Positions 5,802 through 15,501 of a DNA stretch of 38,383 nt are shown piece by piece. Under the pieces are notes generated by a model that did not search any database, was not told where the DNA came from, and saw only the letters and a program-made list of their open reading frames with translations. A program made the translations under genes and the position numbers. The stretch is from Deltaproteobacteria bacterium (GTDB lineage: Bacteria; Desulfobacterota; Desulfobaccia; Desulfobaccales; Desulfobaccaceae): positions 1 through 38,383 of the forward strand of contig JAFDGA010000024.1 in assembly GCA_019309545.1 (NCBI GenBank). The letters are read 5' to 3'. Position 1 is the first letter of the stretch; every line of letters begins with the position of its first letter.

Positions 5802-5916
5802 CTTATACCGATTAGCTTTCAAATGAGTAATTTTATCCTTTATCCCCTCTCCCCCGCTGGCGGGGGAGAGGGCGAGGGTGAGGGGGCATTTTAGCTCTTT
5901 GATCGCAACTTGGTAT
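5802..5916. repeat. 115-bp palindrome-cored repeat, copy 2
   Basis: Second copy of 4818-4932, same orientation, about 95% identical. It overlaps the 3' end of nuoF: the stop codon and the last residues (TKLRSKS) are written in repeat sequence. The strong hairpin lies just past the stop, where it could act as a transcript-end or mRNA-stability structure between nuoF and the Fe-S gene. Confidence 0.85.
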
Positions 5917-7756
5917 CCGCGTCAAATTGGCAGACATCATGACAGCGGCCGCATTTGATGCAGAGGTCCTGATCAATATGTTGCGCTTCCTTCTTGGGGC
6001 CGCTGATCGCCCCCACCGGGCATTCCCGGACACAGGCCAGACAGGCGGTGCAAGCCTCCGGGTCAATGGTATAGGTCAGCAGGGGCCGGCACACCAGGGC
6101 CGGACATTTTTTGTCCCGGATATGAGCTTCGTATTCCTCCCGGAAATATTTTAAGGTAGTAAGCACCGGATTGGCGGCGCTCTGCCCCAACCCGCAGAGG
6201 GAGGCGTTGGCCATGGTGGTGCAGATTTCCTCCATCAGGGCAAGATGCTCCTCCTTGCCCTGGCCGGAAGTGATGTCGTTTAAGATACTCAATAACTGCC
6301 GCAGGCCTTCCCGGCAGGGAGTACACTTGCCGCAGGATTCTTCAAACAGAAACGAAATGAAATAGCGGGCTACGTCCACCATGCAGCTGGTGGTATCCAT
6401 GACGATCATGCCGCCGGAGCCCATGATCGAGCCGACTTCCTGGAGGCTGTCATAATCGACCGGCAGGTCCAGGAACTGCTTGGGGATACAGCCGCCGGAG
6501 GGGCCGCCGGTCTGCACCGCTTTGAACTCCCGGCCTCCCGGGATGCCGCCGCCCAGTTCAAAGATGATCTGTCGGAGGGTGGTACCCATGGGCACCTCCA
6601 CCAGGCCGGTATGATTCACCGCCCCCACCAGGGAGAACACTTTGGTGCCCTTGCTCTTTTCTGTCCCCAGGGAGGCAAACCACTCCGGCCCCATATTGAT
6701 GATCTCCGGGACATTGGCCCAGGTTTCGACATTATTGATCACCGTGGGCAGGTCAAACAGCCCTTGCTGGGCCGGATAGGGAGGTCGGGGCATAGGCTCC
6801 CCGATATTGCCTTCAATGGAGGCGATCAGGGCCGTTTCTTCGCCGCAGACAAAGGCCCCGGAGCCTTGACTGATCTTGATATCAAAGTCAAATCCGGATC
6901 TCAAAATGTTGGTACCTAGGAGGCCGAATTCCCGGGCCTGCTCAACCGCCTGGGAAAGGCGTTTGACGGCCAGGGGATATTCATGCCGCACATAGATGTA
7001 ACCTTGGCGAGCGCCGATCGCAAAAGCCCCGACGATCATACCCTCCAGAACAGCGTGGGGGTCGCCTTCCATCACCGCCCGGTCCATAAAGGCCCCCGGG
7101 TCGCCTTCATCGCCGTTACAAATGACGAATTTCAGTTCACCAGGAACCTGGCGGCACAGGCGCCATTTGCGTCCGGTGAGAAAACCGGCCCCGCCCCGGC
7201 CCCGCAAGCCGGAACGTTCCACGGCCTCAATGACTTCTTCTGGGGTCATCTTGAACAGCACCTTCCTCAGGGTACGGTAGCCGCCTAAGGCTAAATAATC
7301 GTCCAGACTTTCCGGGTCGATCTCATCCAGTTTCCTTAACACCAGCGGCTTTTGCCCCTGATAAAAGGGGACTTCAGACTTATGAACGGCAGGTTGCCCG
7401 CTGACCGGGTCATGATAGACCAGACGCTCAACCACTCCCCCCCCGACCAGACTGGTCTCGACGATTTCCGGGACATCTTCGAGGGTTACTTTCTGGTAGG
7501 CGATCTCCTGGGGCCGCAGCAGCACCCGCACGCCGTGCGCACATAAGCCGTGACAACCGGTGCTTTTCAGAACGACTTTACCTTGCAGGCCCTTTTCTTG
7601 CAGCTGCTCCTGGAAAGCCTGGGCCACCTCGGTGCTTCCCATCGGGAGACAGCCGGGGCCGCTGCAAACCAAAACCTGCTGCTGCTTAGGGTCCCGTCGG
7701 GCCCTAACCTGGCGCCGATATTCTGTCAGATGATCAACCGATTCAATCTTAGGCAT
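5891..7756 (-). CDS. nuoF: NuoF/HydB-like NADH-binding flavoprotein
   Basis: A 621-residue three-part protein. Residues 1-110 are a thioredoxin-like [2Fe-2S] domain (Cys31, Cys36, Cys68, Cys72). The centre is the NuoF core: FMN loop GRGGAGFLTGRKW (about 186-198), NADH-binding GSGAFVCGEETAL, and the [4Fe-4S] motif ESCGKCTPCREG with its fourth Cys in SLCGLG. The C-terminal 60 residues carry two [4Fe-4S] motifs (CTACLACVRECP, CIKCGRCHDVC). This domain order matches the beta subunits of bifurcating hydrogenases and NAD-dependent formate dehydrogenases, rather than complex I NuoF. It starts 15 bases after nuoE. Its last residues are encoded by the inserted repeat. Confidence 0.93.
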   Translation of the reverse strand: MPKIESVDHLTEYRRQVRARRDPKQQQVLVCSGPGCLPMGSTEVAQAFQEQLQEKGLQGKVVLKSTGCHGLCAHGVRVLLRPQEIAYQKVTLEDVPEIVETSLVGGGVVERLVYHDPVSGQPAVHKSEVPFYQGQKPLVLRKLDEIDPESLDDYLALGGYRTLRKVLFKMTPEEVIEAVERSGLRGRGGAGFLTGRKWRLCRQVPGELKFVICNGDEGDPGAFMDRAVMEGDPHAVLEGMIVGAFAIGARQGYIYVRHEYPLAVKRLSQAVEQAREFGLLGTNILRSGFDFDIKISQGSGAFVCGEETALIASIEGNIGEPMPRPPYPAQQGLFDLPTVINNVETWANVPEIINMGPEWFASLGTEKSKGTKVFSLVGAVNHTGLVEVPMGTTLRQIIFELGGGIPGGREFKAVQTGGPSGGCIPKQFLDLPVDYDSLQEVGSIMGSGGMIVMDTTSCMVDVARYFISFLFEESCGKCTPCREGLRQLLSILNDITSGQGKEEHLALMEEICTTMANASLCGLGQSAANPVLTTLKYFREEYEAHIRDKKCPALVCRPLLTYTIDPEACTACLACVRECPVGAISGPKKEAQHIDQDLCIKCGRCHDVCQFDADTKLRSKS

Positions 7757-10397: not shown

Positions 10398-10687
10398 TCT
10401 TCCTCCGTTACCATGCTGATACAACCGGTGACACATTCCCGGGCGCAGATGCCGCAACCTTTGCAATAATCGAGGTTAACATCAAAATAGCCCCCGGTTT
10501 CCTCGATAATCGCCGCTTCCGGACAGACGGTCCAGCAGACCCCGCAACGGATGCAGTGGCTTTTGGTCCATACCGGGTGCTGCGATTTCCAATCTCCTAC
10601 CTTATAATCCCTGGCACTTCCCGGCTCCCTTAGGATCCCGCCCAGCTCAACTTCTTGCCAGGTGTAGTCCTCCAATGGTTTGGTCAT
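10394..10687 (-). CDS. porD: 2-oxoacid oxidoreductase delta (two-cluster ferredoxin) subunit
   Basis: A 97-residue ferredoxin-type subunit. After a 40-residue lead there are two [4Fe-4S] motifs, CIRCGVCWTVCPE and CKGCGICARECV, spaced as in bacterial ferredoxins. In four-subunit POR enzymes the delta chain relays electrons from the TPP-side cluster to external acceptors. It overlaps porG by four bases at its start and porA by four at its end, so the whole set is translationally coupled. Confidence 0.93.
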   Translation of the reverse strand: MTKPLEDYTWQEVELGGILREPGSARDYKVGDWKSQHPVWTKSHCIRCGVCWTVCPEAAIIEETGGYFDVNLDYCKGCGICARECVTGCISMVTEEE

Positions 10688-11241
10688 GGTCGAGCTTCCT
10701 CCACCACTGTTTTGTCGTAGGCTGCTTTCAAGGCCGCAAAATTTTTGGCCGCCATGGGACCGAATCGTTCCCGCAGCGGGTGCTCTAAGGAGTCAACGTT
10801 AACCACTCCGGTAGCCCGGATCAAGGCCCCCAGCATGGTAGTGTTGACAATCAGCACTCCCAACACCTCTCGGGCAATATGATTGGCATCCACTATCGCC
10901 AAGGTATGCTTAAAGCCATATTCCTGCCGGACTTGGTCTATCGACTTGTGGGTATTTAACACCACTATGCCATTGTCTTTCAAGTCTGCGGTCGGTTTCT
11001 GAATGCGTATCAAGCCAGGGTCAAGAATAGTCACCACATCCGGTTGGGCAATCTTGCAACGCAGACGGATATGACGGTCGTTAATGCGGAGGAAAGCCAA
11101 TACCGGAGCACCTCGGCGTTCCGGCCCGAAGCTGGGGAAACCTTGGGCAAACTTGCCTTCCTCAATGGCGGCCAGAGCCAAAAGCTCCACCGAGGTTACT
11201 GCTCCTTGTCCGCCCCGGCCGTGGAATCGAATTTCTAACAT
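10684..11241 (-). CDS. porG: 2-oxoacid oxidoreductase gamma subunit
   Basis: A 185-residue gamma chain with the hallmark N-terminal FHGRGGQGAVTS glycine motif and FPSFGPERRGAPV loop. IVNTTMLGAL and the C-terminal helix AAKNFAALKAAYD are also typical. This subunit helps form the CoA/substrate-binding region of POR. It is the first gene of the continuous cluster, with a leader of about 240 bases separating it from a diverged copy of itself upstream. The short upstream block at 11317-11330 recurs at the same distance ahead of that copy. Confidence 0.93.
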   Translation of the reverse strand: MLEIRFHGRGGQGAVTSVELLALAAIEEGKFAQGFPSFGPERRGAPVLAFLRINDRHIRLRCKIAQPDVVTILDPGLIRIQKPTADLKDNGIVVLNTHKSIDQVRQEYGFKHTLAIVDANHIAREVLGVLIVNTTMLGALIRATGVVNVDSLEHPLRERFGPMAAKNFAALKAAYDKTVVEEARP

Positions 11242-11479: not shown

Positions 11480-12034
11480 TTAAGTTTCTCTTTCCTGGAT
11501 AACTGTTTCCTTGTAGGCCTTCTGGAGGGCAGCAAGATTTTTGGGGGCTGACCGACCCAGGTGTTCCAGCATCGGCGGTTCGATTGATTCCAGATGCACT
11601 ATCTGGGTTACCTTGATGACCGCACCCAGCATGATGGTGTTGACCATGGAAGTGCCCAGGATTTCCCGGGCAATCTGGTTGCCATTGATAACCCCCAAAG
11701 TGACTTGATAGCCGTAGATTTCTCGGATTTCCTCAGGTGCCTTGGCAGTATTTAAAATTAGGATGCCGGTCTTTTTCAAGCCTTGGGTAACATCTTGAAC
11801 TGTTAACAGACTTTCATCCAGGACCACTGCGACGTCTGGTTCCTCGATCTGGGCAGCTAAGCTAATCGGCACTTCATTAACTCTAACAAAGGCCTTAACC
11901 GGGGCTCCCTTCTGTAAGGGTTGATTTGTAAATGCTTGCACATACTTGCCCTCGGCCATGGCTGCCAGGGCCAGTAATTCGACCGAGGTTTCCACTCCCT
12001 GGCGGTCCCAGGCGTGAAATCGAATTTCTATCAT
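11480..12034 (-). CDS. Diverged second 2-oxoacid oxidoreductase gamma-like subunit
   Basis: A 184-residue paralogue of the downstream porG, nearly half identical by eye and collinear almost to the end. The signature is broken: where porG has FHGRGGQGAV this has FHAWDRQGVE, and the FPSFGPERRG loop reads FTNQPLQKG. The rest (TSVELLALAA, GAPV-AF-R-N, MVNTIMLGA, PKNLAALQKAY) is kept, and the frame is intact. It stands 238 bases upstream of porG on the same strand. It may be an alternative or non-catalytic gamma chain that changes substrate or assembly, but this is inference. Confidence 0.85.
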   Translation of the reverse strand: MIEIRFHAWDRQGVETSVELLALAAMAEGKYVQAFTNQPLQKGAPVKAFVRVNEVPISLAAQIEEPDVAVVLDESLLTVQDVTQGLKKTGILILNTAKAPEEIREIYGYQVTLGVINGNQIAREILGTSMVNTIMLGAVIKVTQIVHLESIEPPMLEHLGRSAPKNLAALQKAYKETVIQERET

Positions 12035-13324: not shown

Positions 13325-14002
13325 CTAGTCAGGACCAGCGGACCCGGCCCGCAGGCGCTGGCTAAGCAGATGAGCTTCTCGCAAAGGCAACGGCAGGCGA
13401 TATTTATCCAGGCATTTTAGCACTACCTGTAGGGTTTCCTCAAGGGTAATCAGATTTCCAGGAGATAGGTAAAGAGGTTTGCAGGACCGCCGGGACCGCA
13501 GGACCAAGCCGATTACCTGACCCTCCCATTCCAGGGGGCTGATGCTCCCCTTCTCCATTCCCGGTTCATTGGCCTTGCCGATCAACCGGCTTTTGGCACA
13601 GCCAATGGTGGGCCTCCGTAACAGAACCCCCAGGTGGCTGGCCAATCCCAAGCCCCGCGGGTGGGCAACCCCCTGGCCATCGACCAGGATTACATCTGGG
13701 CGCTGACGGACCTTCTTAAGGGCCGAAATCAGGATGGGTATTTCCCGGAAGGAGAGGAGACCAGGTATATAAGGAAACTGTTGTTCTCCGGTAGCACCCA
13801 CCGCTTCGACTATCTCTAAATCCGGCAGCGTCATTACCACTACTGCCCCATACAGGGCCGGACCTACTTTGTCGTAGGCCACATCCACACCAGCTACCAG
13901 CCGCGGCGGGGTGGCGAGGGGGATCAGTCTGACCTTATCCTGGCAAGCTTTTTGACAGGCCACCGCTTCTTGATAGTTGCTCGGCCAGTTAGAGGATAAC
14001 AT
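13325..14002 (-). CDS. nfi: Endonuclease V
   Basis: A 225-residue DNA-repair nuclease that nicks near deoxyinosine. Family motifs are in order: GVDVAY (first catalytic Asp), YIPGLLSFRE (with the catalytic Glu), VDGQGVAHPRGLGLASHLG (second Asp and the conserved His/Arg loop), and the KSRLIG stretch. Length is normal. It begins 11 bases after the aldehyde dehydrogenase-like gene on the same strand, so it is probably co-transcribed with it. Confidence 0.95.
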   Translation of the reverse strand: MLSSNWPSNYQEAVACQKACQDKVRLIPLATPPRLVAGVDVAYDKVGPALYGAVVVMTLPDLEIVEAVGATGEQQFPYIPGLLSFREIPILISALKKVRQRPDVILVDGQGVAHPRGLGLASHLGVLLRRPTIGCAKSRLIGKANEPGMEKGSISPLEWEGQVIGLVLRSRRSCKPLYLSPGNLITLEETLQVVLKCLDKYRLPLPLREAHLLSQRLRAGSAGPD

Positions 14003-14013
14003 CGGCGAACTAG

Positions 14014-15201
14014 TTACCCCTGGACCAGTTCGGCGCTATAAATGAAGGCACCGTCCCGGCGCTGTAAGCTGCCGTCCTTATTTTCCAAGATCCAGCCACT
14101 CTGTTTTTTGCCACCAAAGGGCAGGCGTAAGGGCGTAAAGGTAAAGTTGGGGTTTTCATAAACCATTCCAAAGGTCTGCTCCAGCTGTTCCCGGGCTTCA
14201 GCAGTGGGTGTCCCAAAAATCGACACCGCAAAAGGATATTCGGTCTGTTGCACCCGCTCTATTGCCTCGGCATCATCCTTAACCCTGATAAGCGCCAGGA
14301 AAGGGCCAAACATCACCAGATCCGGCACCTCCTTAACTTCCACCAACAAGGGCCAGATCCACTTCCCCTCCAGGCGCGGCGGCACCAGATAGCGGGGGCG
14401 GGGAATAGCCTCCAAGCTCTCAGACAGCAAGCGGCGGGTCCGTTCCACTATGATGGGGCCGATCCAGACGTCGGGATCATGTACCTCCCCCACCTTGATT
14501 TCGGCCAACTGGGTCAACACCGCGGATTTAACCTGCTCATAGATTTCTGAATGGATATAAGCCTTTTTTATCGTGGTACAATACTGGCCGCCGTTGATAA
14601 AGGCCCGCCGGACTAGATAACGGGCTGCGGCCGTGATCGAGGTATCGGCTAATAGCACCGCTGCGGGCATGCCGCCGGGTCCGGCGAAAAAGAGCTTGTC
14701 AAAATTAGCCGCGGCCTGTTCGTAGATGGTTCCCACTTCGCTGCCCCCGGAGATAAAAAAGACTCTCACCTGCGGATCAGCAATGCATTGGCGGCCAAAC
14801 TGGGGATTGGCCTGGCCCACTACTGGCTCAAAGATCGGAAAAGGTCGCACCACCTCGGCGATAACCCGGGCAGTCCGGGGAGTCTGGGAGGAAAAGCTGA
14901 ATCGGAACCGATTGCCGCCCAGGACCGCGGCCCCGCCGACCCGGGCCAACATTACTACCGGGGCATCATAAGGAAAAATTGCCGCCACGGTCCCATAGGG
15001 AGCTTTACCAGCCACATGCGGGACCTCTACCGCCATGCTGCCCAGGTGGTCAATGCCTATATCCAATTCGATATGGCCGATCTGATATGGTGCGCCAATA
15101 TCCTCCGCCTCCGCGGCCACCAGGTCATCCCGCCAGCGTTCCAATCTCTCCGCCACCTGGGCCAAGATTTCTAATCTCTCCTGAATTTCCATGTTAGACA
15201 T
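14014..15201 (-). CDS. Aldehyde dehydrogenase-family protein with altered active site
   Basis: A 395-residue ALDH-fold protein, shorter than the usual 450-500. The nucleophile is kept (GGQYCTT, Cys208), as are SGGSEVG and the C-terminal PFGGKKQSG. Other key positions differ: the oxyanion Asn motif (P-N-P) reads FPYDAPV with Asp79, the general-base ELGGK motif reads FAGPGGMP with no Glu, and the cofactor-side E-FGP motif reads VMFGP. It begins with ATG after CGGAG. It may be a non-oxidising or reassigned member, or act without NAD; the substrate cannot be predicted. It is upstream of and close to nfi. Confidence 0.8.
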   Translation of the reverse strand: MSNMEIQERLEILAQVAERLERWRDDLVAAEAEDIGAPYQIGHIELDIGIDHLGSMAVEVPHVAGKAPYGTVAAIFPYDAPVVMLARVGGAAVLGGNRFRFSFSSQTPRTARVIAEVVRPFPIFEPVVGQANPQFGRQCIADPQVRVFFISGGSEVGTIYEQAAANFDKLFFAGPGGMPAAVLLADTSITAAARYLVRRAFINGGQYCTTIKKAYIHSEIYEQVKSAVLTQLAEIKVGEVHDPDVWIGPIIVERTRRLLSESLEAIPRPRYLVPPRLEGKWIWPLLVEVKEVPDLVMFGPFLALIRVKDDAEAIERVQQTEYPFAVSIFGTPTAEAREQLEQTFGMVYENPNFTFTPLRLPFGGKKQSGWILENKDGSLQRRDGAFIYSAELVQG

Positions 15202-15501
15202 ATTACTCCGAGCATTTAAAGGGTTGATCTGAGGGGAGGGCCGGGGGACCGCCGGCCCACCGCCCTTCCCTCAAGTTCCCTTCCCAACCTCCTCTCCCAA
15301 GAGCTGTTTTTTCTAATCCCGATTCATTTATTTTATGATCCGAGTAATAAATATTAAGTCAAGTATATTATAACTCAGAATGTCTGGCTTGCCTTGCAAA
15401 AGGGAAATTTTGGCTCTCCGTGGTTGGGCTAACCGGTCTATCTTGACGTCCCGGGGTAGGGGGGATAAAGTTTAATTATTAATTAAACTGAAGAAGGATT
15501 C
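15202..15501. other. Divergent intergenic region with GC-rich inverted repeat
   Basis: Separates the minus-strand ALDH-like gene from the plus-strand UbiA-family gene. 15231-15272 is an imperfect inverted repeat (GAGGGGAGGG against CCCTTCCCTC, with CCGG blocks inside) 30 bases before the ALDH-like start, so it would lie in that gene's leader. On the plus strand, TTGACG (15443) and TAAAGT (15466) are spaced by 17 and could be a promoter for the next gene. Otherwise nothing is recognised. Confidence 0.5.

Follow-up and report, generated by a model that had tools for sequence, protein, structure and literature searches.

The aldehyde dehydrogenase (ALDH)-fold gene described here lies in a 38,383-nucleotide stretch of DNA, all of which was analysed (the window). 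As judged by comparison with its relatives, it belongs to a real, uncharacterised side branch of the ALDHs and is not a case of local decay. The changes at the Asn, Lys and Glu sites of this branch are old, shared and under purifying selection. As an explanation of these changes we rank non-hydrolytic thioester chemistry first, ahead of a redox-dead binder or partner; we put the probability that the protein is a non-hydrolytic Cys-thioester enzyme (catalysing acyl transfer or acyl-thioester reduction), with an Asp replacing the Asn, at roughly 0.4. Few enzyme folds have been studied as thoroughly as that of the ALDHs, whose Asn and Glu are regarded as almost universal among the hydrolytic members. 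The family has lost both of these residues as well as the cofactor Lys, whereas an equally short sister clade has kept all of them; a comparison of the two clades is therefore a natural experiment on which residues acylation, hydride transfer and deacylation require.

Gene, predicted fold and active-site residues

The only Pfam match of the window protein (Table 1) is Aldedh (PF00171), with an E-value of 3.3e-53, a score of 181 bits against a cut-off of 23, and a start at profile position 45. An AlphaFold2 model built from 48 family members (mean pLDDT 96.1, pTM 0.92) was compared with known structures using VIA-align and matched 3etf_C, a putative succinate-semialdehyde dehydrogenase, with a Z-score of 41.3 and an rmsd of 2.0 over 375 residues, residue 1 of the model matching residue 46 of 3etf_C. 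By sequence profile and by predicted fold alike, the protein is thus a member of the ALDH superfamily, as a sequence-only reading of this DNA had proposed. The alignment shows that it lacks the first ~45 residues of ordinary ALDHs as well as the hairpin of the oligomerisation domain; correspondingly, helix 56-62 of the model leads to strand 71-76 with no other strand in between. The window genome contains two further Aldedh matches, one to a full-length ordinary ALDH and one that spans only profile positions 123-300.

None of the more specific ALDH models listed fits the protein well. In 25 listed of the 39 NCBIfam equivalog models matched, it falls far short of the cut-off every time, the top score being 122.8 bits and the lowest cut-off 500. 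Among the 50 VIA-align entries, none is titled CoA-acylating, apart from the methylmalonate-semialdehyde dehydrogenases 4zz7 and 1t90, which are presumably CoA-dependent; this absence is no proof that the folds differ.

Table 1. Features of the ALDH-like gene and its neighbour (window positions)
Feature	Position	Strand	Remarks
ALDH-fold protein gene	14014..15201	minus	ATG at 15201, 395 aa
Possible ribosome-binding site GGAG	15206..15209	minus	Read by eye, 4 nt upstream of ATG
Asp79 codon	14965..14967	minus	Replaces oxyanion-hole Asn (Asn169; N156 of GabD)
Ser102 codon	14896..14898	minus	Replaces NAD(P) adenine-ribose Lys (Lys192; K179 of GabD)
Ala173-Gly174 codons	14680..14685	minus	Replace general-base Glu (Glu268; E254 of GabD)
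Cys208 codon	14578..14580	minus	Nucleophile (Cys302; C288 of GabD), motif GGQYCTT
Val296 codon	14314..14316	minus	Replaces nicotinamide-ribose Glu (Glu399; E385 of GabD)
Endonuclease V gene	13325..14002	minus	Pfam 2e-71; 11 bp downstream of ALDH-like gene

Residue equivalences were derived from alignments to E. coli GabD, and general numbering follows human ALDH2, in which we take the oxyanion-hole Asn to be Asn169. The contact roles of the GabD residues are those given in PMC2823781, and PMC8160307 bears out the human ALDH2 numbering for Lys192, Glu268, Cys302 and Glu399. The motifs FPYDAPV (76-82), FAGPGGM (172-178) and VMFGP (296-300), from which the sequence-only reading had concluded that the Asn, the general base and the cofactor Glu are lost while the Cys is kept, were each read correctly for the window protein. 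The exchange of Lys192 for Ser102 was absent from its list of changes. Which of Ala173 and Gly174 is the exact partner of Glu268 is unsure, since this loop has one extra residue. Residues 169-185 contain no acidic residue and residues 70-96 no Asn, so that neither the Glu nor the Asn is restored nearby in the sequence. Hence all four residues by which we recognise a hydrolytic NAD(P)-dependent ALDH (Asn169, Lys192, Glu268 and Glu399) are missing from the window protein, and since catalytic residues are absent, an annotation as "aldehyde dehydrogenase" from the Pfam match alone is doubtful.

Conservation of the changes across the family

A scan of a genome collection described as covering 84,980 species yielded 96 relatives, the best 80 of which we examined. 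Of these 80, 72 read as family members (L041-L111, L113); of the other eight, six were ordinary ALDHs (L114, L116-L120), L112 was a locus headed by a sister-type gene, and L115 was a short match to the C-terminal part. Pooling L041-L111 with the loci of further relatives gave 102 rows, 73 of which were distinct over a core of ~150 residues: 66 intact sequences (the window protein included), five cut by contig ends or split, and two halves of one broken copy. The scan recognises sequences with one of two motifs, and the Asp, Lys and Glu sites lie outside both.

All 71 scored rows have Asp at the Asn169 site (66/66 intact rows). The Glu268 site is occupied by Ala in 70 and Gly in two of 72 (65 and one, respectively, of the 66 intact rows), or by Gly in 72/72 in the alternative register. 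At the Lys192 site, we found Ser in 65, Gly in five and Asn in one of the 71 scored rows. Cys302 is present in 72/72 scored and 66/66 intact rows, a count that is partly built in because one of the two scan motifs contains the Cys. Recurrence in relatives, which the sequence-only reading had named as a check, is therefore complete for three sites: every relative scored has Asp instead of Asn and lacks both the Glu and the Lys. The cofactor Glu behaves differently. The Glu399 site carries Glu in 64, Val in three and Gln in one of the 68 scored rows (62, three and one of the intact rows), and among scored rows Val occurs only in the window protein and its two congeners. The claimed loss of this residue thus stands for the window protein but not as a trait of the family. 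The nucleotide-site Gly (G232) is kept in 71/71.

These patterns go beyond chance. In a comparable alignment of 22 other ALDHs, the Asn was found in 22/22, the Cys in 22/22 and the Glu in 21/22, and these 22 sequences together with 10 sister-clade rows also keep the Lys (with one Arg) and the nicotinamide Glu. Furthermore, the former general-base site is followed by a Pro in 72/72 family rows; in the 22 other ALDHs this next residue is Leu (19), Met (2) or Gly (1).

We consider it very unlikely that the protein is an ordinary NAD(P)-dependent ALDH with the missing residues supplied from nearby, or else a decaying pseudogene, although its predicted fold is intact. A search for a restored Asn or Glu, using sequence alignments and predicted secondary structure, recovered neither, and the point that might have overturned the earlier reading has gone in its favour: positions 169-184 are free of acidic residues in 72/72 fully covered rows, the acidic residue at position 185 in 28 rows being aligned with the first Asp of the GabD sequence DDAD, and residues 70-96 are free of Asn in 70/71 fully covered rows, the exception (L096) having its Asn at the start of a strand, off the catalytic site. 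Moreover, Nei-Gojobori dN/dS values were well below 1. Of the 16 pairs compared, 15 gave 0.08-0.30, with dS >1 in some of them; the remaining pair (0.37) was set aside because its members are nearly identical and too similar to count. Together with the residue conservation, these values led us to reject decay except in one broken copy, which does indicate that some copies decay: a third family copy (L030/L102, G019:C329) in a genome that has two intact ones. In addition, the family member at L070 716-1897 is split over two open frames, a possible frameshift or assembly error.

Phylogenetic position, distribution and the sister clade

To place the family, we computed a tree of 56 rows with IQ-TREE. 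The family forms one clade (support 100/99), its sister is an equally short ALDH clade (99/98 for the pair), and both are placed with the hydrolytic ALDHs, apart from EutE and AdhE. An earlier tree, which contained six extra rows judged to be in the wrong frame and left out of the 56-row tree, also returned the family as one clade (98/100) but did not resolve the sister relation. Family-tree placement, likewise suggested in the sequence-only reading, thus indicates a common origin of the family with a sister clade in which the catalytic set is complete. Members of the latter (e.g. L031, L103 3679-4950 and L112 6465-7736) resemble the family in their short length and missing hairpin and differ from it in having kept the Asn, Lys, Glu, Cys and nicotinamide Glu in 10/10 rows. 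For L031, too, the scores fall far short of the cut-offs in the 25 NCBIfam models listed. A TGA in one sister-clade match had raised the possibility of selenocysteine; this was rejected, there being no stop within the aligned protein and a Cys at the site.

Within the order to which the window belongs, the family is present in 25 of 29 genomes and in all 11 genera. In a draw of 395 genomes from the phylum it was found in 21, namely 16/18 within that order and 5/377 outside, where it is therefore patchy. The genomes carrying it are mostly metagenome-assembled genomes (MAGs), and organism names were taken from record titles, which mostly give deltaproteobacterial or Desulfobacterota groups; those titled otherwise, all of them MAGs, are Aquificota (L101, L103, L104) and Deferribacteres (L097). 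The relative from Desulfoferrobacter suflitae strain DRH4 is the single member with a record that carries no MAG label.

This distribution bears on a second explanation, that the family consists of redox-dead pseudoenzymes that bind an aldehyde, an acyl group or a protein partner, perhaps through a covalent bond to the Cys, and that act as a sensor, a scavenger or a structural or regulatory partner, for example of the sister ALDH. This is a strong rival to the thioester enzyme, and we think it less probable than not. The loss of the Asn, Lys and Glu, and in the window's genus of the nicotinamide Glu too, would fit it, as would two loci at which the clades meet. At L103, genes for a TetR regulator, a thioesterase, the sister ALDH, an LDH-like enzyme, the family protein and an MFS exporter follow one another (each identified by Pfam), and the active-type sister, the LDH-like enzyme and the family gene lie in one apparent operon; at L112, a decayed family remnant (5887-6369, N- and C-terminal parts with an internal deletion) lies beside an intact sister ALDH. 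The sister was also found in 9/19 genomes picked behind loci outside the order (L112 having been picked though known to hold it), as against 10/377 in the phylum draw outside the order. On the other hand, a Cys kept in all scored rows and a nicotinamide Glu kept in nearly all are more than a scaffold needs. Obligate partnership with the sister clade is weakened as well, since the sister occurs in only 10 of the 29 genomes of the window's order (in one as a mere 93-residue piece), far fewer than the family. Nine of these 10 also carry the family. In the phylum draw, 19 genomes have the sister and nine have both clades; eight of the nine belong to the window's order, so that relatedness confounds the association.

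The sister ALDH has neighbours of its own. In five MAGs (L148, L151, L152, L153 and L154, the last being the L103 locus) it is followed by an LDH/MDH-like enzyme, and a thioesterase-type gene lies near it in L153 and L154 (by similarity) and in L148 and L152 (by eye). Genes for putative ADP-forming acyl-CoA synthetase subunits were seen by eye near the sister ALDH in L148 and L152.

Candidate chemistry and gene neighbourhoods

With the hydrolytic enzymes GabD/Sad (succinate-semialdehyde dehydrogenase) and 2-aminomuconate semialdehyde dehydrogenase (AMSDH), the family shares the fold (Z 38-41 for the entries listed), the catalytic Cys and the nucleotide-site Gly; it departs from hydrolytic NAD(P)-dependent ALDHs in having Asp for Asn, Ala or Gly for Glu and Ser for Lys, and in missing ~45 first residues and the hairpin. 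In its active site, conversely, it resembles EutE, the N-terminal domain of AdhE, and Cphy1178, which also lack the Glu base and have a small residue instead, have lost the Lys, and keep the Cys and the nicotinamide Glu. A distant alignment with E. coli proteins is consistent with this: EutE, AdhE and ProA lack the Glu and keep the Cys, the Lys site is Ser in AdhE and Ala in EutE, and EutE has Ala at the Glu site too. According to PMC4762007, acylating ALDHs are without the Glu general base, have a small residue in its place (Ala in Cphy1178), and depend on a conserved His close to the Cys. This His (H387 in Cphy1178) is absent from the family in the distant alignment, the only two majority-His columns lying elsewhere. 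Membership in the EutE/AdhE family is ruled out by the missing His and by the tree position; CoA-acylating ALDHs form a separate clade and have the catalytic His, whereas the family has Asp at the Asn site. As the tree groups the family with hydrolytic ALDHs and away from EutE and AdhE, its likeness to the CoA-acylating enzymes is most simply regarded as convergent.

An ALDH without its Glu can still load its Cys, to judge from PMC4286809: the E268A variant of AMSDH has no detectable steady-state activity, but a thiohemiacetal is bound to it covalently and prolonged soaking gives a thioacyl adduct. Two of the changes that are natural in the family occur in AMSDH variants in the PDB. Entry 4oe2 carries E268A, and the chain sequence of 5kj5, 5klk, 5kll and 5klm has Asp at the Asn169 position; the difference is that these are point changes within an otherwise canonical enzyme. 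In a limited literature search, we came across no catalytically altered or pseudo-ALDH that we recognised as this family.

For the non-hydrolytic thioester enzyme that we favour, the following course can be proposed. Cys208 would react with a carbonyl or acyl substrate to give a thiohemiacetal or thioester; in the absence of Glu268, the acyl group would pass to a thiol such as CoA and not to water or, in the alternative direction, would be taken from such a thiol and then reduced. Asp79, a predicted neighbour of the Cys, would take over proton handling. The loss of the general base fits transfer to a thiol, and fits a binding role as well. Because the nicotinamide-ribose Glu is kept, most family members probably bind NAD(P) through its nicotinamide half; in the window's genus, where this Glu is lost, NAD(P) binding may be weak or absent, and the lost Lys, together with the lost Glu, would argue against tight nucleotide binding there.

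The Asp also invites a third explanation, in which a new Cys-Asp centre carries out non-redox chemistry (as a hydrolase, lyase or transferase) on an ALDH scaffold, without NAD(P). An invariant Asp at a position predicted to adjoin the Cys, the loss of Lys192, and the Pro that sets the family apart after the former general-base site all speak for such a centre. The retention of G232 and, in most members, of the nicotinamide-ribose Glu suggests that a nucleotide is still bound there, and we regard this explanation as improbable.

The sequence-only reading had suggested altered chemistry (thioester transfer or binding) or a structural role. Altered chemistry has indirect support from the recurrence of the changes and from their likeness to those of the CoA-acylating ALDHs, and thioester transfer is a reasonable lead; a structural or binding role is plausible too. 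In favour of thioester chemistry are the residue counts with their controls, the recurrence of the changes under purifying selection in every relative scored, the likeness to EutE, AdhE and ProA, and acyl-CoA genes near family members in deep branches. Counting against it are the absence of the acylating enzymes' His, a tree position apart from EutE and AdhE, the scarcity of shared metabolic operons, the loss of the last cofactor Glu in the window protein, and the commonest neighbour in the window's order, endonuclease V, which is uninformative on acyl chemistry. In addition, Asp is expected to be a poor substitute for the oxyanion-hole Asn in hydride transfer. A wider reading is more doubtful still: that a clade scattered through the Thermodesulfobacteriota (and a few MAGs titled otherwise) rebuilt the ALDH site from Cys-Asn-Glu to Cys-Asp and so became a non-hydrolytic thioester enzyme independently of the CoA-acylating ALDHs, with Asp in place of His.

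No operon common to most loci was seen among the loci listed. Beyond the MFS exporter, L103 has three CoA-transferase-III genes, of which one was identified by Pfam and two by similarity. In other deep branches we identified, by eye or by similarity cluster, genes for a thiolase, a hydroxyacyl-CoA dehydrogenase and an acyl-CoA dehydrogenase at L098, an enoyl-CoA hydratase gene at L099 and L101, and CoA-transferase genes at L099; at L097 and L104, no acyl-CoA genes of such kinds were seen. An EmrB-like MFS exporter lies beside or near a gene of one or other ALDH clade in L103 (by Pfam), L098, L099 and L101 (by similarity) and L034, L156 and L161 (by eye).

In the window's order, 18 of the 29 loci (two by short, weak matches) have an endonuclease V gene downstream on that strand, at spacings of 15 bp to 1.7 kb as estimated from approximate match coordinates; 0/45 more distant loci have one, nine of these 45 having <1 kb of downstream sequence. 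A functional tie between the two genes was considered and set aside, no mechanism being proposed.

Further downstream in the window, on the minus strand, 11480-12034 encodes a second protein resembling the gamma subunit of 2-oxoacid:ferredoxin oxidoreductase, beside a normal one at 10684-11241 (both named by eye). Its glycine motif, GRGGQG, reads AWDRQG, and it looks like a degenerate or repurposed paralogue.
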